A stretch of 64,000 bases of DNA from Candidatus Sulfopaludibacter sp. SbA3 (lineage in GTDB: Bacteria; Acidobacteriota; Terriglobia; Bryobacterales; Bryobacteraceae): contig CAMDCN010000007.1 in assembly GCA_945890485.1 (NCBI GenBank), forward strand, positions 186,001-250,000, in the 5' to 3' direction. A model generated the notes under the pieces. That model saw only the letters and a list, made by a program, of their open reading frames with translations. It was not told the origin of the DNA and did not search any database. The position numbers were made by a program, and so were the translations under genes. Every line of letters begins with the position of its first letter. Position 1 is the first letter of the stretch. This document shows positions 801 to 18,581 of the stretch, one piece after another.

Positions 801-2381
801 ATGCGCAAATGGCAGATCATCGTCCTTATCCTCATCGTTGTCCTGGCAGGCCTCGGCGGTGCTCTCTACTACTCCGCCAAACAACTGGCCGCCCGCTTTG
901 AGCCTTACATCCGGGAGCAGGCCACCGCATACCTCCGCGATCGCTTCCAGGCCGATGTCGAACTTGGCGCCTTGCGTGTCGACTTGCCCAAATTCTCGCC
1001 CGTCGCTCTTTGGATGAACAAGGGCCGAGGATCTACGGCCGAGGTGGAAGCCGACAACATAGTTCTTCGCCGATCTAACGCCGCCCCACTCCTGAAGATT
1101 AAGCGCTTCTCCTTCACCGCCGACCTGGGCAAGCTCTTCGATCCCACGCACAAGGTTTCGCTTGTTGTCCTCGATGGCCTGGAAATCTATGTACCTCCTA
1201 AGGGCGAGCGCTCCCAATCTTCCGGCTCCAAATCTTCCGGCTCCAAGCCCTCCTCGAGCGTGATTCTCGATGAAGTCGTTGTTACGAACGCGAAGCTCGT
1301 AATTCTACCCAAGGACCCGGCCAAAAAGCCGCTCGAGTTTGAACTCCAACGCATTCGGATGCTATCGGCCGGTCTGGGTGTTCCGATGAAGTACGAGGCC
1401 TCGCTCCGCAACGCCCGGCCCCCCGGACAGATCGAAGCCAAAGGCGCTTTCGGCCCGTGGAATGCCAGTGAACCCGGCGACACCCCCCTGGACGGCGACT
1501 TCGTCTTCGACAACGCCGACCTGGGAGTCTTCTCCGGCATTGGCGGCATTCTTGATTCGAAAGGCTCGTTTCAAGGGCAACTGGCCCACATCTTCGCCAA
1601 AGGAACCGCCACCGTACCGGACTTTCAGCTAAAGATGGCCGGCAACCCGGTGCCGCTAACTGTGAACTACGACGTCGAAGTGGATGGCACCAATGGCAAT
1701 ACAACCCTCAAGCCTATCCAAGCGGTGCTCGGCAAGACCGCCTTTACCACCTCCGGTGCGGTGATTAAGCACGATGGCGATGCGCGCCGGACGATTGATC
1801 TCGATGTCCTGATGCCGAAAGGTCATCTCGCCGACCTTCTCCACCTTGCAATGAAGGGCACAACCCCCTTTATGACTGGCGACTTCTTCTTGAAGACCAA
1901 GATTCGCATTCCGCCGCTGGATGGAAAAGTGAAGGAGAAGATCCTGCTTGACGGTAACTTCAAAATCCAGAACGGCCAGTTCCTGAGTTCGCAGATCCAG
2001 GAAAAGATCGACGGCATCAGCCGCCAAGCCCAGGGTCAACCGAAGAACATGGCAATCGATGAGGTGTTCACCGATCTTACCGGGCACTTCCATCTGGAAA
2101 ACGAATCGGTGACCTTTCGGGACCTGACCTTCGCCATCCCCGGCGCATTAATGGAGATCGGCGGCCGCTACCGGATGGACACAGAAGATCTCGATTTCCG
2201 GGGCACTGCGCGGCTTCGCGCCAAGGTATCCCAGACGCAGACCGGCTGGAAACGCTGGGCCTTGAAGCCAGTTGATCCGTTCTTCTCGAAGAAAGGCGCG
2301 GGCACGTTCCTGAAGATCAAAATCGATGGCAATCGCAAAGACCCGCACTTCGGTCTCGATCGCGGCAAGAAGTCGGAGTAA
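801..2381 (+). CDS. AsmA-like membrane-anchored protein
   Basis: This 526-residue protein starts with one membrane anchor (about residues 4-25, IIVLILIVVLAGLGGALYY). A long body follows, rich in beta-strand patterns, of the kind seen in AsmA/DUF748-type envelope proteins, including blocks such as DVELGALRVDLPKFSP and repeated segments ending in GAFGPW and GGRYRMD. A Ser/Gly/Lys linker (GSKSSGSKPSSS) lies near residues 141-155. Related proteins span the periplasm and are linked to outer-membrane lipid homeostasis; the role here is inferred. The gene converges on the rrf2-like gene, with stop codons 5 nt apart. The ATG at 801 has only a weak Shine-Dalgarno sequence, but it places the anchor at the N-terminus. 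The family call is moderate; the single-pass anchor is clear. Confidence 0.72.
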   Translation: MRKWQIIVLILIVVLAGLGGALYYSAKQLAARFEPYIREQATAYLRDRFQADVELGALRVDLPKFSPVALWMNKGRGSTAEVEADNIVLRRSNAAPLLKIKRFSFTADLGKLFDPTHKVSLVVLDGLEIYVPPKGERSQSSGSKSSGSKPSSSVILDEVVVTNAKLVILPKDPAKKPLEFELQRIRMLSAGLGVPMKYEASLRNARPPGQIEAKGAFGPWNASEPGDTPLDGDFVFDNADLGVFSGIGGILDSKGSFQGQLAHIFAKGTATVPDFQLKMAGNPVPLTVNYDVEVDGTNGNTTLKPIQAVLGKTAFTTSGAVIKHDGDARRTIDLDVLMPKGHLADLLHLAMKGTTPFMTGDFFLKTKIRIPPLDGKVKEKILLDGNFKIQNGQFLSSQIQEKIDGISRQAQGQPKNMAIDEVFTDLTGHFHLENESVTFRDLTFAIPGALMEIGGRYRMDTEDLDFRGTARLRAKVSQTQTGWKRWALKPVDPFFSKKGAGTFLKIKIDGNRKDPHFGLDRGKKSE

Positions 2382-2386
2382 ACGGC

Positions 2387-2866
2387 CTAGATGTAATACA
2401 TCAGCCCGTCGTCGGCACTGTTCGCCGCGCGGGCCTTGGCCTCGTTCATCCGCTCGCAGACCTGCGCCAGCGTAGTCCCGTCCAGGATCTCCGCCATTGC
2501 ATCCCGCACTTGGCGCATCACCATTCGCGTGCCGCAAAGCCGGTCGTCCACGCACTCATCGCATTTCCGGTAAGCGGTTTCGCTCGCGCAGGGCAGCGGA
2601 GCCAGCGGCCCTTCCAGCAGACGGATCACCGCGCCCATGGTCACCTTGTCCGGGGGCATACTGAGGGAGTAGCCGCCGCCTTTCCCCTTTTTGCTTTCCA
2701 CCAAGCCCTGCCGCTTCATGCCCAGCAGGATCGCTTCGAGAAAATCCTGCGGAATCGATTCCTGCGCGGCCATCTTGGCGATCAGCGTCGGGCCCTGCCC
2801 GTAATTGCCGGCCAGGACGTACAGTGCGCGGAGCGCATATTGAGTCTTCTTTGAGAGAGTCCGCAT
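2387..2866 (-). CDS. Rrf2-family transcriptional regulator
   Basis: This 159-residue regulator opens with MRTLSKKTQYALRAL, the typical start of Rrf2/IscR winged-helix proteins. Next come the recognition region (QESIPQDFLEAILLGMKR, about 36-53) and the wing GKGGGYSL (61-68). Four cysteines cluster at C93, C102, C105 and C111, fitting an Fe-S binding loop like that of IscR or NsrR, so an iron-sulfur or redox signal is likely. The ATG at 2866 was chosen although the frame is open further upstream, because homology begins there and it overlaps the esterase stop as TAATG, implying coupled translation. The target genes are unknown; the upstream esterase/GntP/HisD series is the obvious candidate. 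Confidence 0.88.
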   Translation of the reverse strand: MRTLSKKTQYALRALYVLAGNYGQGPTLIAKMAAQESIPQDFLEAILLGMKRQGLVESKKGKGGGYSLSMPPDKVTMGAVIRLLEGPLAPLPCASETAYRKCDECVDDRLCGTRMVMRQVRDAMAEILDGTTLAQVCERMNEAKARAANSADDGLMYYI

Positions 2867-3993
2867 TAATTCCCTTGCGGCTTCGCTCCCGGCACGCCCG
2901 GAGGACGCGGCCCCCGCGGGCCCATGCGCGGAGGATTCTTCACATACTCCGCGACATCCTTCGCGGCCTTCGTCTCCACGCCCGGCTTGCTGAAGAAACC
3001 CAAGTCCCGCATCCAATCCACCATGCGGTACTGCCAAGTTCCCATCGGGATCCCGCCGCGGTCGGTCAAGCCTCCGGTCATCCGGCTGCCGTCCGGCAGC
3101 GCATCGCCCGGATGCCGCCCGTTCCCGTAAACATGCAGTTCAATATTCGGAACGCCCTTGGCGAGCATCGCATTGAAATATTCCATGGCCCAAATCGCGT
3201 GGACCCGGTCGCCGGAGCCGCCGGTGGCGACAAACGCCGGGGGGACGTTGGCCGGAATCGCCGGCGCCGTGCGGTTGCGGGCAAACGGGCTGGGGCCGGG
3301 GTAGATGATCCCCACATAGTCCGGCCGCGACGAAATCCCTCGCAGCGGATCGCCCTCTTCGTTGTACTTTTTGTCGAACTGATCGAACAAAACAGCCGCC
3401 GGCGCCGAGAGCTCCGCCCCGGCCGAAAAGCCCATGATGCCGATCTTCTGCGGGTCGAAGTTGAACTCCTTCGCGTAGGCCCGCACCATTCGGATGGCCT
3501 GCAGCGCGTCGTTGACGGCGTCCACTTCGGCGATGTAGCCATCCTTCCGGAGGCGGTTCCGCAGGATCACCGTGTTTACGCCATAGTTGTAGAAAAACGG
3601 AACAAAATCGGCGCTTTCACCACCCACATTCAGCGTATTGTGCCCGCCGCCGGCGGCCAGAATCATCACGGCGCCCGTGTTCAGGTTGCCCTCTACTCGG
3701 TGCACTTCAATCGACGGATTGTGAATGTTTACAATGCTGCTGATCCGGCCCGGCACTGCCCGGCTCATGTTATAGACTTCGGCTTCTTTCACGCGGTCGG
3801 CCTTTAGCATCGGAGAGCCCGCCGGATACAACGGAATCACCACGCCACCGGGCAGAATCGGCTGTGGAGCGTAAGGACCATTCGACACCGGACCAGGAGC
3901 CGGAATTCCCATGGGGGCCGGTAGCGGCGGCAAGCCCTGTGCCCAAATCCCGAGCGGCAGGGCCGCGATTCCAACCAAGAGCGCGTGTCTCAT
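2866..3993 (-). CDS. Secreted alpha/beta hydrolase (esterase)
   Basis: This 375-residue protein starts with a signal peptide (ALLVGIAALPLGIWAQ). A Pro-rich stretch (20-60) precedes an alpha/beta-hydrolase domain of the acetyl-xylan esterase/BD-FAE type. The oxyanion-hole block is AGGGH (114-118), the nucleophile lies in GFSAGAE with Ser190, and a His follows in NGRHPGD near the end of the domain. The C-terminus is again Pro/Gly-rich. Such enzymes remove acyl groups from plant polysaccharides or other esters; the substrate cannot be told. It lies 29 nt after the gntP-like gene and its stop overlaps the rrf2-like start, so the genes are probably one transcript. Confidence 0.82.
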   Translation of the reverse strand: MRHALLVGIAALPLGIWAQGLPPLPAPMGIPAPGPVSNGPYAPQPILPGGVVIPLYPAGSPMLKADRVKEAEVYNMSRAVPGRISSIVNIHNPSIEVHRVEGNLNTGAVMILAAGGGHNTLNVGGESADFVPFFYNYGVNTVILRNRLRKDGYIAEVDAVNDALQAIRMVRAYAKEFNFDPQKIGIMGFSAGAELSAPAAVLFDQFDKKYNEEGDPLRGISSRPDYVGIIYPGPSPFARNRTAPAIPANVPPAFVATGGSGDRVHAIWAMEYFNAMLAKGVPNIELHVYGNGRHPGDALPDGSRMTGGLTDRGGIPMGTWQYRMVDWMRDLGFFSKPGVETKAAKDVAEYVKNPPRMGPRGPRPPGVPGAKPQGN

Positions 3994-6719: not shown

Positions 6720-7100
6720 CTACCAGATCGCCTTGGCGTAGTGGGCCCGGATGTGCTCGTCACTGGTGATCAGGTAAGCGTCTCCCGCCGCGCGGGCCTG
6801 GGCTACGATCACCCGATCGAAGGCGTCGCGGGTCCAGGACTCGCGGCACGCAGCGCGGGTCACCCGGTCGAACGAAATCGTGCAAATGCGGAGCCCGATC
6901 GTATCTTCAAGGTGCTGCAGGACGTAGTCCGCAGGATGATCGCTACGCTGAATCTCGAATAGATATTGCAGCTCAATCCGAACAATTGGGGAACACAAGA
7001 GGTCATATCGTTCGATCGCCTGCTTGGCCAGACGGCTGAGCTTCTTCTTGTTGTCTGCCGCCAGGTGAGCCGCGACATGGGTATCCAGATAGGCTTCCAT
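6720..7100 (-). CDS. PIN-domain toxin (VapC-like)
   Basis: This 126-residue PIN-domain protein has the acidic metal-binding residues in the expected order: D6 in YLDTHVA, E43 in RIELQYL, D92 and D95 in TRDAFDRVIVAQA, and D114 in ITSDEH. PIN toxins are RNases that cut tRNA, rRNA or mRNA. The gene follows the antitoxin gene by 10 nt on the same strand, the usual antitoxin-toxin order. It lies just upstream of the hisD-like gene. Confidence 0.9.
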   Translation of the reverse strand: MEAYLDTHVAAHLAADNKKKLSRLAKQAIERYDLLCSPIVRIELQYLFEIQRSDHPADYVLQHLEDTIGLRICTISFDRVTRAACRESWTRDAFDRVIVAQARAAGDAYLITSDEHIRAHYAKAIW

Positions 7101-7110
7101 CGAAACCTAT

Positions 7111-7362
7111 CTAGCGATTCCGCCGTTCCCAATCGGCAACGATCTCTGCGTTCATCGTGCGGAGATCCTCTTCGAGCGTTTCGTACGTCACGCCGGGGAC
7201 CACTCCAGGCATCGGTTTCAGCCGGGCCAGCTTCGAGGGCTTCTTCTCCGCCACCAACTGGAACGTGTTCCCTTTGTAGGTAAACTGCACCTTCTCCCCA
7301 CGCGAGGCCGCATCCGCCAACGCGAATAAATTCTGCCGGGCCTTCGAGATGGTCAGTGCCAT
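7111..7362 (-). CDS. Phd/YefM-family antitoxin
   Basis: This 83-residue protein begins MALTISKARQNLFALAD, matching the N-terminal DNA-binding fold of Phd/YefM antitoxins, followed by the strand EKVQFTYKGNTFQLVAEKK. The acidic C-terminal part (YETLEEDLRTMNAEIV) would wrap the toxin. It should neutralise the downstream PIN toxin and repress the operon. Two TGTACA palindromes just upstream match the core known for YefM operators. Confidence 0.88.
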   Translation of the reverse strand: MALTISKARQNLFALADAASRGEKVQFTYKGNTFQLVAEKKPSKLARLKPMPGVVPGVTYETLEEDLRTMNAEIVADWERRNR

Positions 7363-7368
7363 ACCCTA

Positions 7369-7400
7369 ATTGTACAGCCGGTTCCAAACAGTTGTACAAC
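7369..7400 (-). promoter_or_regulatory. Toxin-antitoxin operator and promoter
   Basis: Two palindromes with TGTACA cores lie directly upstream of the antitoxin start: GTTGTACAAC at 7391-7400 (perfect 10-bp palindrome) and TGTACA at 7371-7376. Their centres are 22 bp apart, two helical turns. A -10-like TACAAT (minus strand, 7374-7369) overlaps the proximal palindrome and ends six bases before the ATG, so the mRNA may be nearly leaderless. TGTACA is the published core of the E. coli YefM-YoeB operator; binding here is inferred. Confidence 0.7.
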
Positions 7401-8141
7401 TCACTCTCGGCGCGCGCGCAACCGGCCCAGCCAGCGGAACATACCAAATGCACCGAGCGCCAAAGGCAGCAGCATCAGCCAGAGCAGCAGGCTGTCAAAC
7501 CACGTTCTCGCATGTGCGGCATACACCTCACCGACCGCTTGCAGCCGCGGCTGCAAACCCACTTGCCGCGCCGCCTCCTCCAACTCCGGTAGCGTTTCGA
7601 ACTCCGTCCTCCGGCCGGTGCCTGCCTCCAGCAGGAAGTACGACTCGACGAGGCGGTCTCCCGCCTCCGGAGTCTCAACGACCCGCCGCCCGCGACCGCC
7701 CAAAATATAGCCATTCGCCAACTGCAGCAGCCGGACGTCTCGAATTCCTTCCTTCCATCCGTTCCGCCACCGCGGCCAACCTGCCGGCCGGTACAGCGTT
7801 CCCACCTCCAGCGATCCCTTGTCCAGAAAGAGTGAATAGCCATTCGGCAAGGGGCAATCGAACTCATCCCCTCCCCTAACGCTTCTCTCGAATACAAGCA
7901 CGTTGACTGCTCCGTGGCCCAGGTACGCCGCGCCCAGCCAAAAGACGCAGAGAAACGGAAACAATGCCGTTACCACGAGGAAGCCACCCCGGCCTTGCTC
8001 CACTCCTCGCGTCAATAGTGCGCCGATGCCGACGGCAAAGACGGCGAGGACGCAGGCCAGAACGAAGCCGAAGAACAGTCCCACCACGAACAAGACAATC
8101 GCCAGTCCCATGGACCCTCCCGGCCGCTCATTGTATGCCAA
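7401..8141 (-). CDS. Membrane protein of unknown function
   Basis: This protein of up to 246 residues has two N-terminal membrane segments (about 12-45 and 50-78), an extracytoplasmic or cytoplasmic globular middle (80-215) and a C-terminal membrane segment (LLLWLMLLPLALGAFGMF). I do not recognise the family. Met11 at 8111 is an alternative start that begins right before the first membrane segment. It is divergent from the kdp sensor gene with about 40-70 nt between starts, and its stop codon abuts the toxin-antitoxin operator. Confidence 0.6.
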   Translation of the reverse strand: MAYNERPGGSMGLAIVLFVVGLFFGFVLACVLAVFAVGIGALLTRGVEQGRGGFLVVTALFPFLCVFWLGAAYLGHGAVNVLVFERSVRGGDEFDCPLPNGYSLFLDKGSLEVGTLYRPAGWPRWRNGWKEGIRDVRLLQLANGYILGGRGRRVVETPEAGDRLVESYFLLEAGTGRRTEFETLPELEEAARQVGLQPRLQAVGEVYAAHARTWFDSLLLWLMLLPLALGAFGMFRWLGRLRARRE

Positions 8142-8180
8142 CTGTGCGTCTGTGCTTCGATAGGAAGTCAGCCCGCTACG

Positions 8181-9635
8181 ATGGATTTCTCCTTACGCAA
8201 ACCGTCCTCCGCTCTCGGCCTCGCGGCTGGACTCGGTGCCGTTGCCGCGTTGACCGCCGGGTTTACGAAGCTTCTGCCGGTGAATGCCTCCACGGCCGGA
8301 TTCTTCTATCTGTTGGTCGTGCTCGGCGTTGCCACTACCAGCGGCTTCCGTGTTGCCGCCGCGGTCTCCGTGGCCGCCATGCTGTGCTTCAACTATTTCT
8401 TCTTCCCTCCCGTCGGCACGTTCACCATCGCCGATCCCGCCAACTGGGCCGCCCTCTTCACCTTCCTGCTCACCGCTCTGGTCGCCAGCCACCTCTCGGA
8501 CCGCGCGCAGGAACAGGCCGCGGAGGCCCGCCGGCGGCAACTCGAAACCGAGCAGCTCTACTCGCTCAGCCGCGCCATCCTGCTGACGGAGCCTTCCCGG
8601 CCCATCGGCAATCAGGCCGCGCAAAGTATCGCGCAGATCTTTGACTCTCCCACCGTCCTGCTGCTCGACGCCAAATCGAATCAATGTTTCCGTGGCGGCG
8701 CGCAGGATCTTGACGGCATGGAGGAGCGCCTGAAGGATGTCGTCCGCCTGGCCACCCATTACCAGGACGAATCCCGCGATCTGGATATCTGGCCCATTGC
8801 CCTCGGAGGCGACCCCATTGGCGCATTGGCGACCGTCGGCATTCGGCTGCCCGATAGCGCCGTGCACTCGATGCTGAATCTCGTCGCCATCGCGCTCGAA
8901 CGAGTGCGAACCCAGGACACCGCGAATCGCGCCGAGGCCGCCCGTCAAAGCGAAGAGTTTAAGTCCACTCTCCTCGATGCCATCGCGCACGAATTCAAGA
9001 CCCCGCTAACCTCCATCAAAGCCGCCGCCACCGGCCTCCGTACCCTTGGGCACAGCCTATCGCCGAATCAAAGAGAACTAGCGGCCATCATTGACGAAGA
9101 AGCGGACCGCTTGAGCCATCTGGTGACGGAGGCGGTGCAGATGGCGGAGATCGACGCGGGCAAAGTGACGCTTCATCGCGTTCCGATCCCGGTGGCCGAT
9201 CTGCTGGCTGCGGCGATGGAGACCTTTGACGGCCGCGGGGCGGAACGCTTGCACCTCGCCACGGCCGTGGGCGGCAAGGTGTTCGTAGATCGGGAACTGC
9301 TCATCCTTGCCGTGCGGCAGGTTTTTGACAATGCACTGAAGTACTCACCGCCGGATTCGCCGGTGGTTTGCACTGCCGCGCACACGCCCGGGCGAATGCT
9401 GCTTCGGATCGTCGACCAGGGCCCGGGTGTTCCCGAGCAGGATAGCGACCGTATCTTCGAGAAGTTCTATCGCCGCGCGAGCGTTCGAGAGCTGGTTCCC
9501 GGCAGCGGACTCGGCCTTTCCATTGCCCGCGAGATTGCGCGCGTCCATGGCGGCGACCTATGGGTGGAGGCCGCTGAAGCTGGCGGTGCGGCCTTCTGCT
9601 TCTCGTTGCCGCTGGCCCCTGGAGACGCCGCATGA
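8181..9635 (+). CDS. kdpD: KdpD-type sensor histidine kinase lacking the KdpD N-terminal domain
   Basis: This 484-residue kinase starts with the DUF4118 four-helix membrane bundle typical of KdpD (about 10-105, including FNYFFFPPVGTFTI). A GAF-like region (125-245), a HisKA domain with phospho-acceptor His270 in DAIAHEFKTPLTSIK, and a HATPase domain (DNALKYSPP, DQGPGVP, GSGLGLSIA) follow. Full KdpD carries a KdpD ATPase and USP domain of about 370 residues before this; here they are missing and are found as two separate genes at 14927-17096. The gene overlaps kdpE by 4 nt. It should sense low K+ or envelope stress and phosphorylate KdpE. Confidence 0.92.
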   Translation: MDFSLRKPSSALGLAAGLGAVAALTAGFTKLLPVNASTAGFFYLLVVLGVATTSGFRVAAAVSVAAMLCFNYFFFPPVGTFTIADPANWAALFTFLLTALVASHLSDRAQEQAAEARRRQLETEQLYSLSRAILLTEPSRPIGNQAAQSIAQIFDSPTVLLLDAKSNQCFRGGAQDLDGMEERLKDVVRLATHYQDESRDLDIWPIALGGDPIGALATVGIRLPDSAVHSMLNLVAIALERVRTQDTANRAEAARQSEEFKSTLLDAIAHEFKTPLTSIKAAATGLRTLGHSLSPNQRELAAIIDEEADRLSHLVTEAVQMAEIDAGKVTLHRVPIPVADLLAAAMETFDGRGAERLHLATAVGGKVFVDRELLILAVRQVFDNALKYSPPDSPVVCTAAHTPGRMLLRIVDQGPGVPEQDSDRIFEKFYRRASVRELVPGSGLGLSIAREIARVHGGDLWVEAAEAGGAAFCFSLPLAPGDAA

Positions 9636-10327
9636 CCTCCGCCCGCATTCTCGTCGTTGACGATGAACCGCAGATCCGCCGCGTCCTTCGCACTACGCTT
9701 TCGGCTCAAGGCTACGAAGTGTTCGACGCCAAAACCGGAGAAGAAGCTCTCCTCTCCATTCGCGACCACCGGTTCGATTTGGTCCTGCTCGACATGAACA
9801 TGCCCGGCATGGGCGGCCTCGCCGCTTGCCGCGAGATCCGTGCCGGATCCGACGCAGCCATCATCATGCTCACGGTGCGCCAGGGCGAAGGGGACAAGGT
9901 GGCCGCGCTCGATGCAGGCGCCGACGACTACATCACGAAGCCGTTCGGCATGCCCGAGATGCTGGCCCGGATTCGCGCGGTACTCCGCCGCATGCCCACC
10001 GTGCAGGGGAACGAGCACGCGCGCATTCAACTGGACGGCGTCGTCATCGACTTGGCAGCCCGCCGAGTACGCCGTGGGACGGAGGAGGTTCGGCTCACGC
10101 CCAAAGAGTTCGACCTGCTCCACTACCTCCTGGCGACGCCCCATGTCGCCATCCCTCACACCAAACTTCTCCAGGCCGTGTGGGGACCGGATTACGGCGA
10201 CCAAGTGGAGTATCTCCGCGTGTTCGTCAACCAACTTCGCAAGAAGATTGAACCCGATCCGGCCAAGCCCCGCTACCTTCTCACGGAGCCCTGGGTTGGC
10301 TATCGATTCGAATTGCCGCGGCCTTAA
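9632..10327 (+). CDS. kdpE: KdpE response regulator (OmpR family)
   Basis: This 231-residue protein has an N-terminal receiver domain with the acidic pocket D10/D11, phospho-acceptor D54 (LVLLDMNMPGM) and Lys103 (DDYITKPFG). An OmpR-type winged helix follows (RLTPKEFDLLHYLL, VNQLRKKIEPDP, GVGYRF-like end). Its ATG overlaps the sensor stop (ATGA), so the two are coupled. It is expected to activate the kdpFABC genes that begin about 70 nt downstream; a matching direct repeat lies in that gap. Confidence 0.93.
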   Translation: MTSARILVVDDEPQIRRVLRTTLSAQGYEVFDAKTGEEALLSIRDHRFDLVLLDMNMPGMGGLAACREIRAGSDAAIIMLTVRQGEGDKVAALDAGADDYITKPFGMPEMLARIRAVLRRMPTVQGNEHARIQLDGVVIDLAARRVRRGTEEVRLTPKEFDLLHYLLATPHVAIPHTKLLQAVWGPDYGDQVEYLRVFVNQLRKKIEPDPAKPRYLLTEPWVGYRFELPRP

Positions 10328-10343
10328 CGCAATCCTTAGCCCG

Positions 10344-10376
10344 CCTTTATGACTTCCTTATGGCTTGCGCCATAAG
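10344..10376 (+). promoter_or_regulatory. Candidate KdpE operator and stem-loop
   Basis: Between kdpE and the first small gene lie TTTATG (10346-10351) and CTTATG (10357-10362), a direct repeat with an 11-bp period, the spacing usual for OmpR-family dimers. The second copy is the left arm of a perfect inverted repeat, CTTATGGC TTGC GCCATAAG (10357-10376), which could form an 8-bp hairpin with a 4-nt loop. No T-tract follows, so a simple terminator is unlikely. Location and AT-richness suit an internal kdp promoter control site; this is inference. Confidence 0.5.
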
Positions 10377-10397
10377 CTGGGAAACAGGTTGGCCATT

Positions 10398-10481
10398 ATG
10401 CTTGATTTGCTCTATATCGCGGCCTCGCTGCTCTTCTTCGCATTCTGTTGGGCGCTCGTTCGCGCCTGCGAAAAACTCTAG
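10398..10481 (+). CDS. 27-residue single-pass membrane peptide at kdp locus
   Basis: ATG at 10398 opens a 27-codon frame, MLDLLYIAASLLFFAFCWAL then VRACEKL, ending in TAG. It is one hydrophobic helix with a positively charged tail and resembles short peptides I have seen encoded just before kdpF in other kdp operons. It ends 23 nt before kdpF and is on the same strand, so it is probably an extra small subunit or regulator of the Kdp complex. It is distinct from KdpF in sequence. Confidence 0.6.
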   Translation: MLDLLYIAASLLFFAFCWALVRACEKL

Positions 10482-10504
10482 CCGCGCCCCCAGGACACCC
10501 TTCC

Positions 10505-10588
10505 ATGGACTACATTCTCGCCGGCGTCTGCGCCGGGCTCTTGTGCTGTTATTTGACGTATGCACTCCTTAAACCGGAGCGCTTCTAA
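10505..10588 (+). CDS. kdpF: KdpF small subunit of potassium ATPase
   Basis: A 27-residue frame ([20 protein letters not shown] then LLKPERF) matches KdpF: one membrane helix and a C-terminal LLKPERF. KdpF stabilises the KdpABC complex by contacting KdpA. The stop is 8 nt before the kdpA start. Confidence 0.88.
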
Positions 10589-10596
10589 GGATCCCC

Positions 10597-12318
10597 ATGA
10601 CATCCAACGGTGTATTTCAGATCCTCCTCTATTGCTCACTCATCCTCGCGCTCACGAAGCCGGCCGGCGCCTTCATGGCCCGGCTCTTCGCTGGAGAGCG
10701 CACGTTTCTCCACCCTGTACTCCGGCCGTTCGAGCGGCTTTGCTACGTCCTGATCGGTGTCCGTGAAGATGCCGAACAACGTTGGACCCAGTACGCGGCC
10801 AGCCTGCTCTCGTTCAGTTTTTGGAGCTTTCTGCTTCTATTTCTCCTCCAACGGTGGCAGAGCCTGCTCCCGCTGAACCCCTCCGGCTTTGGCCCGGGCG
10901 TCACGCCGGATCTTGCGTTCAATACCGCCGTCAGCTTTGTAACGAATACGAACTGGCAGTCGTACAGCGGCGAGAGCACCTATAGCTATCTGGTCCAGAT
11001 GGCCGGTCTCACGGTGCAGAACTTCGCCTCGGCCGCGGCAGGCTTAGCGGTCGCGATCGCCGTCATACGCGGCTTCGCCCGGCAGCAGACGAACACACTT
11101 GGCAACTTCTGGGTTGACATCACCCGGGCCGCTGTTTATATCCTTTTGCCGCTTAGCGTTCTCGCTGCGCTGTTCTTCTGTTCGCAAGGCGTCATCCAAA
11201 ATTTCACACCTCCAACTGTGGTCACCACACTCGAAGGCCAACAACAGGTGATCGCGCAGGGGCCGGTCGCCTCGCAAGAGGCCATCAAGATGCTCGGCAC
11301 CAACGGCGGCGGCTTCTTCAATGCCAATTCCGCGCATCCATTTGAAAACCCGACACCGCTTACGAATCTCCTGCAAATGGTGTTGATTTTCGTTCTCCCC
11401 GCAGGCCTCACCTATACTTTTGGCCGCATGGTCGGCGACCAACGCCAGGGCTGGGCTCTGTTCTCCGCAATGAGCGTCCTGTTTCTGGCCGGTGTCTTTG
11501 TCGTCTATGCGGCCGAACAGGCGGGGAACCCGAATCTGACCCAACTCGGCGTGGCCTCGATCGCATCCGAAGACCAACCAGGCGGCAACATGGAAGGCAA
11601 AGAGGTCCGCTTTGGCATCGCCGCCACGGCGCTGTTCGCCACCATAACGACGGCTGCCAGTTGCGGCGCTGTGATCGGCATGCACGATAGCTTCACGCCG
11701 CTCGGTGGGCTCGTTCCTCTGTTCAATATGCAGGTTGGCGAAGTCATCTTCGGTGGCGTAGGCGCTGGGCTGTATGGCATGTTGCTGTTCGCCATCCTGG
11801 CCGTGTTCATCGCTGGACTTATGGTGGGCCGCACCCCGGAGTATCTGGGGAAACGGATTGAAGGCAAGGAGGTGAAGATGGCTATGCTCGGGCTAATCGC
11901 CACGGCCGCCGCGATTCTGCTCTTCTCCGGCGCCAGCACCGGCTTCACCGCCAACCTCAACAATGGCGGCCCGCATGGGTTTGCCGAGATTCTGTACGCC
12001 TACACCAGCGCCGCGGCCAACAACGGCAGCGCGTTCGCGGGCCTCAATGCGAACACGCCCTGGTTCAATACGACGCTCGGCATTGCTATGCTGATTGGCC
12101 GTTTTCTGATCATCATTCCGATGCTTGCCGCGGCGGGCAATTTGGCATCGAAGAAGAGGCTCGCCGTCACCAGTGGCACACTTCCCACCCACGGTCTGCT
12201 GTTTGTGACGCTGTTGATCGGCACCATCGTCATCGTTGGCGCCCTCACGTTCTTCCCCGCGCTTTCGCTCGGTCCCATCGTCGAACACTTCCTGCTGCAG
12301 CAAGGGAGGCTTTTTTAA
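10597..12318 (+). CDS. kdpA: Potassium-transporting ATPase subunit KdpA
   Basis: This 573-residue polytopic protein is the K+-binding channel-like subunit of the Kdp pump. The repeated selectivity-filter regions are visible, e.g. [33 protein letters not shown] and a later [10 protein letters not shown]. Length matches the family (about 560). It follows kdpF by 8 nt and precedes kdpB by 1 nt. It moves K+ inward together with the ATP-hydrolysing KdpB. Confidence 0.97.
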
Positions 12319-12319
12319 C

Positions 12320-14353
12320 ATGACTCGCTCGCGTCCGCTCTCTGACCCCGCTATTCTCCGCCGCGCCCTGCGCGACTCTTTCGTTAAGCTCCATCCGGCG
12401 AAGCTCATCAAGAATCCAGTCATCTTCGTTGTTGAAGTTGGCGCATTCATGACGACGGCCCTGCTCCTGCGGGACCTGGCCACGGGCGCCGCGGACACCG
12501 GATTCAACTTCCAGATCAGTCTCTGGCTTTGGTTCACTGTCCTGTTCGCCAACTTCGCAGAGGCCATGGCCGAAGCGCGCGGCAAAGCGCAAGCGGACTC
12601 TCTGCGCAAAACCAAAACTCACTCGGTCGCCAAACGTCTGCAGCCGAATGGGAAGACTGAGGAGGTCTCTGCCTCGCAACTGCGCGCCGGCGACCACGTG
12701 ATCTGCGAAACCGGCGACACCATTCCGGGTGACGGCGAGGTGGTGGACGGCATCGCCACGGTGGACGAGTCGGTGATTACCGGGGAGAGCGCGCCGGTCA
12801 TCCGGGAGTCGGGCGGCGACCGTTCGGCGGTGACAGGCGGCACGCGTGTCCTCTCTGACCGGATCCAGATCCGCATCACTTCCAACCCCGGCGAGACGTT
12901 CCTCGACCGGATGATTGCTCTGGTCGAAGGCGCGGATCGTAAGAAGACGCCGAATGAGATCGCGCTGAATATCCTAATCGCCGGCCTTACGCTTATCTTC
13001 CTCCTGGCTGTGGTTACGCTGCAGCCTATCTCCGCTTCTAGCGGGGCGCCTCCATCTGTTGCGGTGCTCGTCGCTCTGCTTGTCTGTCTGATTCCCACGA
13101 CTATAGGCGGTTTGCTCTCCGCCATCGGCATCGCCGGCATGGACCGTGTGATGCAGTACAACGTCCTCGCCATGAGCGGCAAGGCGGTGGAGGCGGCGGG
13201 CGACGTCAATACGCTGTTGCTTGATAAGACGGGCACCATCACCATTGGCAATCGCCAAGCGGTGGAGTTCCTGCCCGTCGCGGGCGTTCTCGAAACGGAA
13301 CTCGCCGAAGCCGGGCAGCTTTCGAGCTTCGCCGATGAGACACCGGAGGGCCGCTCGGTCGTAGTCCTGGCCAAAGAGAAGTATGGCCTGCGGGGCCGCG
13401 AACTTTCGCACCACGAAGCGCACTTTATTCCCTTCTCGGCCTATACCCGCATGAGCGGCGTCGACATGAACTCCGATCATCTGCGCAAGGGCGCTACGGA
13501 GTCCATCGCGCAGTTTGTCCGGGAGCAGGGGGGCGCGGTGCCCGATGAACTCCACGACCTCGCCGCTCGCGTCTCCCGGCAAGGAGGTACTCCGCTTGCG
13601 GTCGCCAACGGCCGCCGCGCCCTCGGCATCATCCATCTCAAAGACGTGGTGAAGGGCGGCATGAAAGATCGCCTCGCCGAACTGCGCCGCATGGGCATCC
13701 AGACGGTGATGATCACCGGCGACAATCCGCTCACCGCCGCCGCCATCGCGGCTGAGGCCGGCGTCGACAATTTTCTCGCCCAGGCGTCGCCCGCCGATAA
13801 GCTGAACTACATCAAGAAGGAGCAGGCCGAGGGGCGTCTGGTCGCCATGACCGGCGATGGCACCAACGATGCTCCGGCCCTCGCGCAGGCCGATGTCGGC
13901 CTGGCGATGAACACAGGCACCATGGCAGCCAAGGAGGCGGGCAATATGGTGGACCTCGATTCCAACCCTACCAAGCTCATTGAGGTGGTTGGCATCGGCA
14001 AGCAACTGCTCATCACCCGCGGCGCGCTGACCACTTTCTCCATCGCCAACGACGTGGCCAAGTACTTCGCCATCATCCCGGCGATGTTCATGACGGCTTA
14101 CCCGGCTCTTGGCGCGCTCAACATTATGGGGCTGCACAGTTCGCAAAGCGCGGTGCTCTCAGCCGTCATCTTCAACGCGCTGATCATCATTGTCCTGGTG
14201 CCCCTTGCTCTGCGCGGTGTGAAGTACCGGCCGGAATCGGCTGGCGCCCTGCTGCGACGCAACCTGCTGGTGTACGGCCTCGGCGGCTTGGTGTCGCCGT
14301 TCCCGGCCATCTGGATCATTGACCAATTCGTCCACGCCCTCGGCTTGGCCTAA
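12320..14353 (+). CDS. kdpB: Potassium-transporting ATPase ATP-binding subunit KdpB
   Basis: This 677-residue P-type ATPase has the TGES actuator motif (154-157), the phosphorylated Asp302 in DKTGTIT, and the hinge motif [11 protein letters not shown] in the P-domain. About seven membrane segments are seen. The ATG at 12320 lies one base after the kdpA stop and 10 nt after a strong AAGGGAGG (12302-12309). The open frame reaches further upstream inside kdpA, but the residues there are not KdpB-like. ATP hydrolysis by KdpB drives K+ uptake through KdpA. All catalytic motifs are intact. Confidence 0.97.
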
Positions 14354-14364
14354 GGAGAACGATT

Positions 14365-14925
14365 ATGCTCAACCAACTCATGCCCGGCCTGCGCCTCGCG
14401 GCGCTACTCACTGTCTTAACCGGACTGATCTATCCCGGGGTCGTCACCGCGCTTTGCCGGGCGTTCTTCCCCGGCGCAGCCAATGGTAGCCTCATCACCC
14501 GCGATGGCGCCATCATCGGCTCCGCCCTGCTCGCCCAGAACTTCACGCGTCCGGAGTATTTCCATCCCCGCCCCTCAGCCGGCAATTACGATGCCTCCGC
14601 GTCGGGCGGCTCCAACCTCGGACCCACCAGCCAAAAGCTGGTCGACCGCATCGCGGCGCAACGGGGGCAGCAAGCCACGGCCGGGCTGATTCCCGCCGAC
14701 CTGCTCACTACCAGCGCCAGCGGGCTCGATCCGCACATCAGCCCCGCGTCTGCGCAGACCCAGCTTGCCCGGGTCGCCAGCGCTCGCGGCGCGACGCCGG
14801 AGGCGATTGCCGCGCTAGTGGCTACCTTCGTCGAGCCGAGGGCTCTTGGCCTGCTTGGCGAGCCTCGCGTCAACGTGCTGCGGCTCAACTTGGCCCTCGA
14901 CGATCGCTTCCCCCTGCGCAAGTAA
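14365..14925 (+). CDS. kdpC: Potassium-transporting ATPase subunit KdpC
   Basis: This 186-residue protein has one N-terminal membrane helix (RLAALLTVLTGLIYPGVVTA) and the KdpC periplasmic domain with YFHPRPSA, YDASASGGSNLGP, and a C-terminal VNVLRLNLALD. KdpC bridges KdpA and KdpB. It follows kdpB by 11 nt with GGAGA just upstream, and ends 1 nt before the next gene. Confidence 0.95.
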   Translation: MLNQLMPGLRLAALLTVLTGLIYPGVVTALCRAFFPGAANGSLITRDGAIIGSALLAQNFTRPEYFHPRPSAGNYDASASGGSNLGPTSQKLVDRIAAQRGQQATAGLIPADLLTTSASGLDPHISPASAQTQLARVASARGATPEAIAALVATFVEPRALGLLGEPRVNVLRLNLALDDRFPLRK

Positions 14926-14926
14926 C

Positions 14927-16009
14927 ATGTCCCACTCGGAACGCCGCAAGCCAACGCCCGAAGAACTGCTGCGCCGCGTCGAGGCCGAAGAGAGCCAGCA
15001 GAGGCGCGGTCGGCTGAAGGTTTTCCTCGGCTACGCTTCCGGCGTCGGTAAATCGTTCCGGATGCTTGACGAAGGCCGGCGACGCAAGATGCGCGGCCAG
15101 GATGTGGTCGTTGCCGCCGTCCAGCCTGTGTCGTCGGGTCCGGCGGCGGAGCTTCTGGAGGCGTTCGAAGTCGTTCCGGCGGGCGCCGGTCTGCCCGGTG
15201 TAGCACTCGATCTTCCGGCGATCCGCCAGCGTCGCCCGGCCATCTGCCTGATTGACGGACTGGCCTACCGCAACCCGCCAGGCAGTCTCAATGAACGTCG
15301 CTGGCAGGACGTGGAGAACCTGCTGGCCAGCGGCATCTCGGTGATCACGACGGTGAACCTGCAGTATATCCGCGAGAAGCAGCCCATCGTTGAGGCCATT
15401 CGTGGGAAAGCGGTGGCCGACTCTGTCCCCGAGAGTTTTTTGCTCCAGGCGGATGAGATTGAGGTTGTTGACGCTCCGCCCGAATCCTGCGACGAGTCCG
15501 GCTCGCTCTCGGGCCAACTGTCCGCGCTCCGGGAAATCGCCCTCGTCCTGGCGGCAGAAGTAGTCGACGCCCAACTGATCAACTACCTCAAACGGCATGG
15601 GATCGAGCAGTCTTACGGCACGCAGGAGCGGATCCTCGTCTGCATCACTCCTCGGTCCAACGCCGACCTCATGATCGGCAGCGGCCGCCGCCAGGCGGAC
15701 CGCTTCCACGGCGATCTCTTTGTGGCCTATGTCGAGCAGCCGGATCTCTCACCCGCGGACCGAGCCACTCTCGACCGCAATCTAGCCACCGCCCGCCAGG
15801 CAAGCGCCCATCTGGCGATCCTTCACGGAGAGGATCTCGTTGCCGCAATCCTTCGCCTCGCCGCACAGGAGGGCATCACACAGATCTTCGTCGGCCATAG
15901 CCAACGCACTGGCTTCTGGGACCGGATTCGGGCGAACCCCGTCGAACGGCTGATCCTCGACTCGACGGGCCTCGATATCCGCATCTTTCCGCAGCAACCG
16001 GTACCCTGA
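14927..16009 (+). CDS. Stand-alone KdpD N-terminal domain + USP protein, divergent copy
   Basis: This 360-residue protein matches only the soluble N-terminal part of KdpD: a P-loop ATPase-like KdpD domain (30-230) and a universal-stress-protein domain (245-355, ILVCITPRSN). Walker A is intact (GYASGVGKS, 35-43). The next motif reads LIDGLAYRNPPGS, so the usual DE(L/F)xHTNxPGS has Gly111 for Glu and lacks HT. No membrane or kinase part follows. It starts 1 nt after kdpC (start chosen at 14927, since upstream residues lie inside kdpC). It may supply the sensory domain in trans to the short KdpD kinase. Confidence 0.88.
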   Translation: MSHSERRKPTPEELLRRVEAEESQQRRGRLKVFLGYASGVGKSFRMLDEGRRRKMRGQDVVVAAVQPVSSGPAAELLEAFEVVPAGAGLPGVALDLPAIRQRRPAICLIDGLAYRNPPGSLNERRWQDVENLLASGISVITTVNLQYIREKQPIVEAIRGKAVADSVPESFLLQADEIEVVDAPPESCDESGSLSGQLSALREIALVLAAEVVDAQLINYLKRHGIEQSYGTQERILVCITPRSNADLMIGSGRRQADRFHGDLFVAYVEQPDLSPADRATLDRNLATARQASAHLAILHGEDLVAAILRLAAQEGITQIFVGHSQRTGFWDRIRANPVERLILDSTGLDIRIFPQQPVP

Positions 16010-16013
16010 CCTC

Positions 16014-17096
16014 ATGCCGCCGATTGAACCAATCCGCACCGAAGGCCGGCTGAAAATTGTCCTGGGCTACGCCGCCGGGGTCGGCAAAACATTCCGGATG
16101 CTCGATGAGGGCCAGCGCCTGGCCTCGGCCGGGCACGATGTGGTGATCGGCTATTTCGAACCCCACGGCCGGCAGGACACCATTGCGCGGACCGAGGGCC
16201 TGGAAACGATTCCCCGCCGCCGCATTGCATACCGCGAACGAACTTTTGAGGAGATGGATACCGACGCCATTCTCGCCCGCCATCCGGAAATCTGCCTGGT
16301 GGACGAGTTTCCCCACACGAATGTACCCGGCTCGGCGCGGGCCAAGCGCTGGGAGGATGTGATGGCGCTGCTCGCCGCGGGCATTGACGTTCTCACGACC
16401 ATGAACATTCAGCACCTCGAAAGCCTCAACGATCAGGTGCGGGAGATCTCTGGCGTTCAGGTGCGCGAAACCATTCCAGACTGGATCCTGAAGCGCGCCG
16501 ACGAAATTGTTCTCGTCGACCTCACGCCGGGCGCGCTGCTCAACCGGCTCGACCGCGGAGTCGTCTACGCCCCGGCGAAGGCGCAACTGGCCAAGGAGAA
16601 TTTCTTTAAAGAGCCCATCCTTGCCGCCCTTCGCGAAATGGCTCTTCGTCAAACCGCGCACGAGGTGGATCCCCGCCAGTCCATGGATCACGAGAGGATC
16701 CTAATTCATGTCACCCATGCACCCAGCGCCGCCGGCCTTATCCGCCGCGGCCGCCGCGTCGCCGACTATCTGCACGCCGAATGCTTCGCCGTTTGTGTCC
16801 CGCCCGAGCCGGGGCTCAACCACTTGCCGGCAGGCGAACGGGAGGCGCTGGAGCGTCATCTCGATTTCGCCCGAAAGCTGCACATCGAAACCAGGATCCT
16901 CGACGCAGGCGACCCCGCCGACGCCCTGGTAGCCTTTGCCCGCACCAATGCGATTACGCAAATCTTTCTGGCCAAACCGAAGCGCCCCCGTTTCCCGCCG
17001 CTTTCGGCGGGCTACCAATTCGTCCGCAAGGTGATTCGCCTGGCACTGGACATCCAGGTGACGGTCGTCGCCGAACGCCCGCCTCACGCATACTAA
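16014..17096 (+). CDS. Stand-alone KdpD N-terminal domain + USP protein, canonical copy
   Basis: This second 360-residue KdpD N-terminal protein has canonical motifs: Walker A GYAAGVGKT (18-26) and CLVDEFPHTNVPGS with D97/E98. The USP domain (about 230-350) carries ILIHVTHAPSAAG. In E. coli KdpD this region binds ATP, and its USP domain has been reported to bind regulators such as c-di-AMP in other species. It lies 4 nt after the divergent copy and 6 nt before selO. The pair probably arose by duplication after KdpD was split. Confidence 0.9.
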   Translation: MPPIEPIRTEGRLKIVLGYAAGVGKTFRMLDEGQRLASAGHDVVIGYFEPHGRQDTIARTEGLETIPRRRIAYRERTFEEMDTDAILARHPEICLVDEFPHTNVPGSARAKRWEDVMALLAAGIDVLTTMNIQHLESLNDQVREISGVQVRETIPDWILKRADEIVLVDLTPGALLNRLDRGVVYAPAKAQLAKENFFKEPILAALREMALRQTAHEVDPRQSMDHERILIHVTHAPSAAGLIRRGRRVADYLHAECFAVCVPPEPGLNHLPAGEREALERHLDFARKLHIETRILDAGDPADALVAFARTNAITQIFLAKPKRPRFPPLSAGYQFVRKVIRLALDIQVTVVAERPPHAY

Positions 17097-17102
17097 AAAG
17101 TA

Positions 17103-18581
17103 GTGCTTGACCTCTCCCGCGAACTCGGCTTCCTCTTCGATAACTCCTACGCCCATGACCTTCCTGGCTTCCACGCCCCTGCCACCGCCGCTGCGGCGCC
17201 TGCTCCCCGACTCCTCAAGCTGAACCACGCCCTTGCCCGCGAACTGGGCCTCAACGCGGACGCCCTTGATTCCCCCGTCGGCGCCGAGATCTTTTCCGGT
17301 AACTACGTTCCCCCCGGCGCCGAGCCGCTGGCCCAGGCCTACGCCGGCCATCAGTTCGGCAACTTCGTGCCGCAGCTCGGCGACGGCCGCGCTCTCCTGC
17401 TCGGCGAAGTAATCGATACGAGCGGCCAACGCCGCGACATCCAGTTCAAAGGCTCCGGCCGCACCCCCTTCTCCCGGGGCGGTGATGGCAAGGCGGCGGT
17501 GGGTCCGGTCCTGCGCGAATACATCCTGGGCGAAGCGATGCACGCGCTCGGCGTGCCCACCACCCGCGCCCTCGCCGCCACCGCCACCGGCGAACCCGTC
17601 TACCGCGAAACCCCGCTGCCCGGGGCCGTGCTCACTCGCGTCGCCGCCAGCCACATCCGGGTCGGCACATTCCAGTTCTTCGCCGCCCGCGGCGACACGG
17701 CAAAACTCAAGCAACTGGCCGACTACACCATCGCCCGCCACTATCCGGACCTTGCGGGCGAGCCCAACCCCTATCTCGCCCTACTCGCCGCCGTCTCGGA
17801 CCGGCAGGCCACGCTGATCGCCCGTTGGATGCACGTCGGCTTCATCCACGGCGTAATGAACACCGACAACATGGCCATCTCCGGCGAGACGATCGACTAC
17901 GGCCCCTGTGCCTTTCTCGATACCTACAGCCCCGCCACCGTCTTCAGCTCCATCGATCGCAGCGGCCGCTATGCCTACGGCCAGCAGCCGCAGATCGCCC
18001 GTTGGAATCTCGCCCGGTTCGCTGAGACGTTGTTGCCCCTGATCGACGCCGATCAGCAGGCCGCGATCCCGCAAGCCGTTGCCGTCCTCGAAACATTCGG
18101 GGACCGGTACGATACCGCCTGGCTCTCCGGCATGCGCGCCAAGCTCGGACTGCTCGGCGACTTCCAACCGGACGACCTCGATCTTGCCAACGGCTTCCTG
18201 GCCGCCATGGACGGGCAAGCGGTCGACTATACCCTCGCATTCCGTGGGCTCTCGACCGCAGCCGGCGGCGACGATTCGCTCGTTCGCCCGCTCTTCGCGA
18301 ACTCGAAACCCTACGACGTTTGGGCTGCCCGCTGGCGCTCTCGCCTCAGCGCTCCCTCCGCCAGCGCCATTTTGATGAATTCCGTCAACCCCGTCTACAT
18401 CCCGCGCAACCATTGGGTCGAGTCCGCCCTCACCGCTGCCGTCGAGCACGACGATCTCGCCCCGTTCCACGCCCTGCTCGATGTTCTCGCCGAACCCTTC
18501 AATCCGCGGCCCGGCCTCGACGCTTACGCCGGACCCGGTCCCCGCGGCAACGCTCCCTACCGTACGTTCTGCGGCACTTAG
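17103..18581 (+). CDS. selO: SelO/YdiU protein adenylyltransferase
   Basis: This 492-residue protein is a SelO pseudokinase, which transfers AMP to hydroxyl side chains of proteins and is linked to redox stress. Motifs: the N-terminal FDNSYA, AYAGHQFGNFVPQLGDGRA (80-98), IQFKGSGRTPFSRGGDGK (113-130), HGVMNTDNM (249-257, metal site N253/D255) and the DFG-like DYGP at 265-268. The C-terminus is YRTFCGT, with Cys where eukaryotic SelO has selenocysteine. The start is GTG, 6 nt after the second KdpD-N gene, suggesting cotranscription with kdp. Its 3' half lies antisense to an extended kinase frame. Confidence 0.95.
   Translation: MLDLSRELGFLFDNSYAHDLPGFHAPATAAAAPAPRLLKLNHALARELGLNADALDSPVGAEIFSGNYVPPGAEPLAQAYAGHQFGNFVPQLGDGRALLLGEVIDTSGQRRDIQFKGSGRTPFSRGGDGKAAVGPVLREYILGEAMHALGVPTTRALAATATGEPVYRETPLPGAVLTRVAASHIRVGTFQFFAARGDTAKLKQLADYTIARHYPDLAGEPNPYLALLAAVSDRQATLIARWMHVGFIHGVMNTDNMAISGETIDYGPCAFLDTYSPATVFSSIDRSGRYAYGQQPQIARWNLARFAETLLPLIDADQQAAIPQAVAVLETFGDRYDTAWLSGMRAKLGLLGDFQPDDLDLANGFLAAMDGQAVDYTLAFRGLSTAAGGDDSLVRPLFANSKPYDVWAARWRSRLSAPSASAILMNSVNPVYIPRNHWVESALTAAVEHDDLAPFHALLDVLAEPFNPRPGLDAYAGPGPRGNAPYRTFCGT

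Follow-up and report, generated by a model that had tools for sequence, protein, structure and literature searches.

An apparently complementary pair of stand-alone KdpD N-domain proteins at the end of an acidobacterial kdp operon

Introduction

The N-domain of the potassium sensor KdpD is an atypical serine kinase (ASK) that phosphorylates Ser162 of KdpB and thereby inhibits the pump (Silberberg et al. 2024, PMC11018627). Its activity needs the Walker A motif, D109, E110 and the W39/R190 pair; in Escherichia coli KdpD the E110A change abolishes the activity and W39A/R190A almost abolishes it, and the model published there places the N-domain at the A domain of KdpB. According to the same source, separate chains for the ASK (KdpD/Usp) and the histidine kinase (HK; TM/GAF/DHpCA) are commonest in Acidobacteriota and Chloroflexota, and the short KdpD/Usp protein of Deinococcus geothermalis phosphorylates E. 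coli KdpB, stimulated by cyclic di-AMP (c-di-AMP). The same split has been described in D. radiodurans (PMC5716572), the serine-kinase role of KdpD is treated again in a later structural study (PMC12629597), and the Usp domain of E. coli KdpD binds UspC and matters for signalling (PMC2714519). The subject of this work is the kdp operon in a 64,000-nucleotide stretch (the window) of Candidatus Sulfopaludibacter sp. SbA3, positions 186001-250000 of contig CAMDCN010000007.1 in a 7.1-Mb genome that is 97% complete. The operon ends in two adjacent genes for stand-alone KdpD N-domain plus Usp proteins, named here C1 (14927-16009, + strand) and C2 (16014-17096, +).

In Clostridium acetobutylicum the kdpABCXDE operon carries an extra KdpD-N-like gene, KdpX, beside a full KdpD. 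The window resembles the split systems of PMC11018627 in its two-chain layout, its phylum, the position of the ASK downstream of the pump and the presence of an HK and KdpE; as in D. geothermalis, D. radiodurans and cyanobacteria, stand-alone KdpD-N + Usp follows kdpC. It differs in number. The main text of PMC11018627 has one ASK chain, and the Deinococcus and cyanobacterial loci fetched here (D. radiodurans, L327, is among them; the D. geothermalis sequence itself is not) have a single copy with the whole catalytic set, whereas the window has a pair. The split of KdpD is already in print and was rejected as the novelty. No paired, degenerate or inactive ASK copy turned up when the main text of PMC11018627, without its supplements, was searched by terms, and no paired or inactive KdpD-N was found in the literature searched, which left out most subscription papers. 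The complementary C1/C2 pair seems to be new.

Results

C1 and C2 code for 360 amino acids (aa) each and match the KdpD N-domain family PF02702 over its curated cut-off of 26.1 bits, with 167.1 and 297.6 bits, respectively (the start of C1 is taken at the ATG at 14927; the list of open reading frames, ORFs, begins it at an upstream TTG). They are the only PF02702 matches in the genome; hence no full-length KdpD (NF007793, N-domain and HK in one chain) was seen in this 97% complete assembly, and a second full KdpD elsewhere in it was rejected. Pfam calls no Usp domain in either protein. Their predicted single-chain models (mean pLDDT 86 for C1 and 90 for C2) both resemble 7ji4, a KdpD Usp domain (Foldseek E 3e-8), which comes next after the best fold match, the Pseudomonas KdpD N-domain 2r8r (root-mean-square deviation 1.7 for C2 and 4.3 for C1); with pTM values of 0.62 and 0.64 for C1 and C2, the arrangement of the domains in the models is uncertain. 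The top NCBIfam match of both is NF038185, KdpD-like non-kinase potassium sensor, with 214 bits for C1 and 324 for C2, below its cut-off of 550. The initial annotation had placed two adjacent 360-aa KdpD-N + Usp proteins at the end of the operon, and the profile and fold matches bear this out; they are two copies in domain content, but only 36% identical (119/329 aligned columns) and with different active-site motifs.

The degenerate protein is C1 (residues are numbered as in E. coli KdpD). It has the P-loop and D109, while E110 is replaced by Gly, E61 by Gln and H63/R65/H113 by Val/Ser/Tyr, with a gap at R190, so that both E110 and the adenine-contacting R190 of an ASK are missing. C2 keeps K37, D109, E110, R190, E61, H63, R65 and H113; with its Phe at position 39 it appears, on its motifs, to hold everything asked of an ASK, that is, Walker A, the Walker B residues D109/E110, R190 and an aromatic residue at 39. 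The substrate is in place as well: kdpB (12311-14353, +; TIGR01497, 1033 bits) encodes the TGES motif with the Ser162 target of the ASK, and a Ser follows TGE in 51/51 KdpB sequences, that of the window included.

Motifs were counted over 80 loci from a search of the class with C1, 80 loci from a contig search (the best 80 of at least 540 relatives, with titles such as Acidobacteria, Bryobacterales, Terriglobia and similar) and 5 further loci, identical segments being kept once. The 80 class loci come from 93 hand-counted C1-type rows of at least 264 bits, the window's own row excluded. Excluded were 13 rows: the two copies in G080, one copy of the two in each of G243, G276 and G084, the partial G198, G168 and G176, and G344, G299, G096, G293 and G347; in 7 of them inspected later, outside the counts, C2 follows C1 in 6 and the contig of G198 ends. 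Lone ASKs (n = 72, from 12 + 60 loci) were picked from listed single matches, not at random, and the prediction that they have both the catalytic and the pocket site was written down before they were scored. One C1, four paired C2 and one other C2 were left unscored because key positions were gapped. Despite their frame length, the paired C2 of L131 and L153 and two MgtE fusions (L167, L245) were not counted as full-length KdpD.

The catalytic set, K37/D109/E110/R190, is complete in none of 134 C1, in all 121 paired C2, in 72/72 lone ASKs and in 13/13 full-length KdpDs. Across the 135 C1, window included, K37 is present in 134 and D109 in 135, but E61 is Gln in 135/135 and E110 is Gly in 123 and Glu in 8; R65 is retained in 3, H113 in 7 and H63 in 2, and 99-100% have gaps at the lid columns 199-204. 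In 67/135 position 190 is aligned with an Arg, within a poorly aligned stretch. The quartet E61/H63/R65/H113 is found whole in 0/135 C1, in 123/125 paired C2 and in 64/72 lone ASKs, and wherever they align the paired C2 hold these and the other scored sites, with one exception (Ala61). A map that does not preselect residues gives the same picture for the N-domain: among 90 columns conserved in lone and full proteins, 21 are lost in C1 only and 1 in C2 only, 37 are kept in both, and mean retention is 0.57 for C1 and 0.83 for C2. The idea of two catalytic kinases in competition was rejected on the active-site motifs. One C1 of the 135, in locus L098 (G029), is the only one without the P-loop lysine (GMGVS).

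The second site lies in the Usp domain. Pocket positions were taken from the Staphylococcus aureus c-di-AMP complex 7ji4 (PMC8214093) and mapped through HMMER profile alignments: a small residue (A/C/G/S) at 256 ending β1, an aromatic of β2 (Y/F/H) at 285 and the first Gly of the β4-α4 loop at 343. The window's C1 has this set, as C256/Y285/G343, and its C2 does not, having H256/C285/A343; the C1 of Bryobacterales bacterium F-183 (L183/L093) carries a Cys in place of the Tyr. The pocket is complete in 111/134 C1, 8/121 paired C2, 72/72 lone ASKs and 12/13 full-length KdpDs, as well as in the ASKs of Synechocystis PCC 6714 and Allomeiothermus, and 86 of the 121 paired C2 have none of the three residues. 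Taken pair by pair (n = 124), the full pocket is in C1 only in 96, in both chains in 8, in neither in 20 and in C2 only in none. C1 and C2 do not differ in the variability of their Usp domains (mean pairwise identity 0.50 for both, 74 matched loci); therefore the loss of the pocket in C2 is not merely that of a faster-evolving domain. Since the two proteins have lost opposite sites, the competing or alternative sensors suggested in the initial annotation find no support.

The pair is widespread in the lineage. Of 101 genomes of the family, 61 have a PF02702 match. Among the stand-alone proteins two classes of score are seen, mostly as neighbours: the downstream copy scores about 277-318 bits and the upstream copy about 142-207. 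The matches also include full-length KdpDs of about 900 aa and a few fragments. With C1 as the query, 399 genomes of the class yielded 94 matches (264-780 bits; hand count, window included) spread over 90 genomes; the next score is 207 bits, the level at which canonical copies and a few fragments of C1 begin to appear. In the phylum (396 genomes, C1 profile) nine genomes score 468-572 bits, the next one 334, and in 9/9 of them, G628 included, a canonical copy lies directly downstream. Among the 80 loci fetched for their C1 relative, C2 is directly downstream on the same strand in 76, more than chance would give, which upholds the conservation of gene order in related genomes that had been set as a check. 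The gap between the two genes, with start codons chosen by script, ranges from -32 to 22 bases in 70 of the 76 (-4 in 20 of them) and from 110 to 260 in 6; at L090 about 0.6 kb separates C2 from C1. The 729-aa open frame in G293 was rejected as a natural C1-C2 fusion, as C1 has its own stop and C2 starts overlapping in another frame. Genes of the kdp pump lie upstream on the same strand within 6.5 kb of C1 in 56/80 loci; in 9 loci the sequence is too short and in 15 they are absent from that stretch, at least four of the 15 (L105, L125, L138, L151) having pump genes close by in another arrangement. At least 9 kb of upstream sequence is available for 56 loci, and 31 of these have the complete order HK-kdpE-kdpA-kdpB-kdpC-C1-C2.

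As a control, 12 class loci with a lone ASK were inspected. HK matches adjoin the ASK in 12/12 and C1 is absent, although in 3 of them the HK matches are weak (<85 bits) and no pump genes are in view. The split of KdpD therefore does not require C1.

In a quick tree of 43 C1 and 43 C2, each forms a single clade (SH-aLRT 100 and 99), and the branching of the two clades is largely mirrored, as judged by eye. The eight C1 that keep E110 represent two changes on the tree. Five of the eight C2 with a whole pocket are in the tree and form the sister group to the C2 partners of seven E110-keeping C1, and L148 has both an E110-keeping C1 and a whole-pocket C2; this lineage looks intermediate. Both genes are under purifying selection, with ratios of nonsynonymous to synonymous substitution (dN/dS) of 0.06-0.29 for C1 and 0.07-0.27 for C2 (19 close, overlapping pairs, with dS high in most). 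C1 has invariant residues of its own, Q61, R47, R48, F170 and E251, and is retained across many genera and in families outside the class; C2 for its part has invariant residues in its Usp domain, R268, R269, R272 and C281. In partial distance correlations over 33 loci with all seven genes, the strongest value of C1 is that with C2 (0.37); HK-KdpE, a known pair of partners, gives 0.48, C2-KdpA 0.38, C2-HK 0.26 and C1-HK 0.10. These correlations are suggestive only, and would tie C1 to C2 rather than to HK.

Discussion

We propose, with a probability of about 0.47, that a duplicated ASK has undergone complementary degeneration, so that C1 would be a nucleotide-sensing pseudokinase and C2 the catalytic ASK of a heteromer that jointly brakes KdpFABC. 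C1 would be the ancient duplicate sister that lost the catalytic residues and the lid and kept the P-loop and the adenosine pocket of the Usp domain. By analogy with the KdpDs of E. coli and D. geothermalis, C2 would be the stand-alone ASK that phosphorylates KdpB. The operon would separate transcriptional control, exerted by the membrane HK and KdpE, from post-translational braking of the pump. At low K+, HK and KdpE would turn the operon on, and C1 and C2 would be made last, together with the pump. Once K+ is restored, a nucleotide signal would bind the Usp domain of C1, c-di-AMP where a diadenylate cyclase exists and otherwise perhaps ATP or AMP. We infer that C1 and C2 bind each other and that control runs from the first to the second: the complex would let C2 phosphorylate the TGES serine of KdpB, and KdpFABC would stop while K+ is plentiful.

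As to the ligand, the genome of the window has a diadenylate cyclase and c-di-AMP is one candidate; in genomes that lack the cyclase, a different adenine nucleotide is just as possible. The pocket of C1 is intact in 43/47 genomes with the cyclase and in 18/32 without it (Fisher p 0.0004; 79 of 80 scored, kinship ignored). As the significance is lost once phylogeny is corrected for, cyclase presence was rejected as a predictor of the C1 pocket.

Several observations weigh against the proposed pair. The cyclase is present in only 47/80 C1 genomes (one of them, G020, only through a weak match) and the pocket is retained by lone ASKs of cyclase-less genomes (e.g. G033, G040, G044), so that c-di-AMP cannot be the sole ligand; its link with the pocket is not upheld when phylogeny is considered, six independent pairs giving nothing significant and having no power. 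The pocket signature consists of three residues only. It is incomplete (2/3) in D. radiodurans and D. ficus, the short KdpD of the former having Thr at the Tyr position, as D. ficus does at this aromatic site. At the five positions of the Firmicutes c-di-AMP motif (A/G/C)xSxSx2N...Y/F given in PMC8214093, the window's C1 has C, T, R, A and Y and thus not the full motif, and C2 has H, T, A, A and C. A full pocket is found in neither chain of 20 pairs and in both chains of 8, and for 8 of 135 C1, in which K37, D109 and E110 are all retained, the poorly aligned R190 is the one position missing from the catalytic set. The unselected map is weak in the Usp domain: of 17 columns, three are lost in C2 only (C256, A314, G343) and two in C1 only (L266, A325), with mean retention of 0.68 in C1 and 0.54 in C2; two of the three C2-only losses are pocket residues, and the map backs complementary loss only weakly. 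Three loci of 80 (L113, L117, L165) show no C2 within about 1.0, 3.0 and 3.0 kb downstream of C1. The genome of L117 (G285, 92% complete) has C1 with no other PF02702 match, possibly a natural case of C1 alone, or else an assembly gap. Finally, C1 and C2 each arose about once; the counts are therefore counts of sequences, a few events held by selection, and not of independent events.

Other functions for C1 have to be considered. It might be a brake on the brake, binding KdpB (or ATP) without phosphorylation and shielding the serine from C2, with neither a C1-C2 complex nor sensing. C1 does keep the P-loop, D109 and much of the N-domain (the 37 columns kept in both copies), the very part that the model of PMC11018627 places at the A domain of KdpB; this explanation is nevertheless unlikely, since it leaves unexplained why C2 has mostly lost the pocket residues that C1 kept. 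More doubtful still is that C1, C2 or both act in trans on HK as its detached input domain. The same domains are fused to HK in full-length KdpD, and the binding of UspC by the Usp domain of E. coli KdpD (PMC2714519) speaks for such a role; however, the partial correlations with HK (0.10 and 0.26) are low compared with the 0.48 of HK-KdpE, lone ASKs beside a separate HK manage without C1, and the short KdpD of PMC11018627 acts on KdpB. The initial annotation had also supposed an input domain in trans: KdpD is indeed split, and its N-part must act in trans if at all, but the job described for it in PMC11018627 is phosphorylation of KdpB Ser162, not input to HK. With the split in print and the N-domain acting on KdpB, there is nothing unusual in the split, and a free N-domain looks more like a brake on the pump than like an input domain; the low C1-HK correlation, suggestive only, likewise fits poorly with C1 and C2 as competing sensors that feed HK.

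The near-universal P-loop Lys and D109 of C1, together with the eight E110, could mean that it is a kinase or ATPase still, with altered chemistry or another substrate. This is improbable: E110 is Gly in 123/135 and E61 Gln in every C1, the lid is gapped, and in E. coli the substitutions of E110 and of W39/R190 (PMC11018627) have the effects given above. A functionless decaying duplicate would account for the loss from C1 of 21 of the 90 conserved N-domain columns that C2 retains, but hardly for its low dN/dS, its own invariant residues and its retention across many genera and in families outside the class, and has very little probability.

A broader version of the nucleotide-sensing pair is more tentative than the one proposed above. 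C1 and C2, the products of duplication and complementary loss in one sensor-kinase protein, could form an obligate, two-gene allosteric serine kinase in which the nucleotide-binding pseudokinase controls the pocketless catalytic subunit. A few genomes carry the module next to MgtE or Nramp genes, with the kinase half joined to MgtE, and it may therefore have become a general post-translational controller of cation transporters. The pair bears on signal reception by the KdpD N-domain kinase: in the course of evolution the site for the signal and the site for catalysis seem to have been divided between two chains, and each would therefore be separately mutable and titratable. In C1 the recently found bacterial serine kinase has a relative that is conserved and apparently inactive, and there is a practical warning in it: counting PF02702 genes overcounts active brake kinases in Acidobacteriota.

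Other genes of the operon and its relatives

The operon starts, as the initial annotation had it, with a 484-aa KdpD-type sensor HK without the KdpD N-terminal domain (8181-9635, +). Pfam calls DUF4118, which is the KdpD membrane region, HisKA and HATPase_c, and neither PF02702 nor GAF; by the first three domains it has the TM/GAF/DHpCA layout of split KdpD. The response regulator KdpE (9632-10327, +; Response_reg and Trans_reg_C) overlaps it by 4 bases, and its top NCBIfam match is KdpE with 216 bits, under the cut-off of 325. Read from the sequence, kdpF (27 aa, 10505-10588, +) precedes kdpA (10597-12318, +; TIGR00680, 780 bits), and a kdpF-like ORF lies upstream of kdpA in 40/46 loci. An unannotated hydrophobic ORF of 27 aa upstream of kdpF (10398-10481, +), also read from the sequence, is a candidate only; lookalikes were found by a loose regular expression in 6/46 loci, hence it is not established. 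Between kdpB and C1 lies kdpC (14365-14925, +; TIGR00681, 207 bits), and a SelO gene starts at 17103 (+), 6 bases after C2. Rfam finds no c-di-AMP riboswitch or other known RNA in window positions 7000-18000, with one sub-threshold match to an animal microRNA taken as chance.

Genes for other transporters are found near the pair in some relatives. Fusions of KdpD-N to MgtE, a divalent-cation transporter (PF02702 + CBS + PF01769), occur in L167, where C1 (3001-4071) is followed by a 707-aa C2::MgtE fusion (881-3001, -), and in L245, where a C1-C2 pair is accompanied by an 802-aa KdpD-N::MgtE fusion on the opposite strand (8094-10499, -); both fusions have the complete catalytic set and 1/3 of the pocket residues. 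No paper on a link between KdpD and MgtE was found by title. In L236 (5091-6275) and L237 (6777-7961) MgtE (PF01769) is encoded by a free gene that separates kdpC from C1 and ends 33 bases short of C1. In L107 an Nramp metal-transporter gene (PF01566, 1677-3026) precedes the C1-C2 pair by 56 bases, with no kdp genes within the fetched locus. L088 (7765-9153) and L091 (8214-9488) have a BBP2-type outer-membrane porin gene (PF07642) between kdpC and C1, perhaps an outer-membrane route for K+ in these operons. Upstream of the operon in the window, a small ORF at 6720-7100 (-) codes for a PIN domain (PF01850, 41 bits), possibly the toxin half of a toxin-antitoxin pair.

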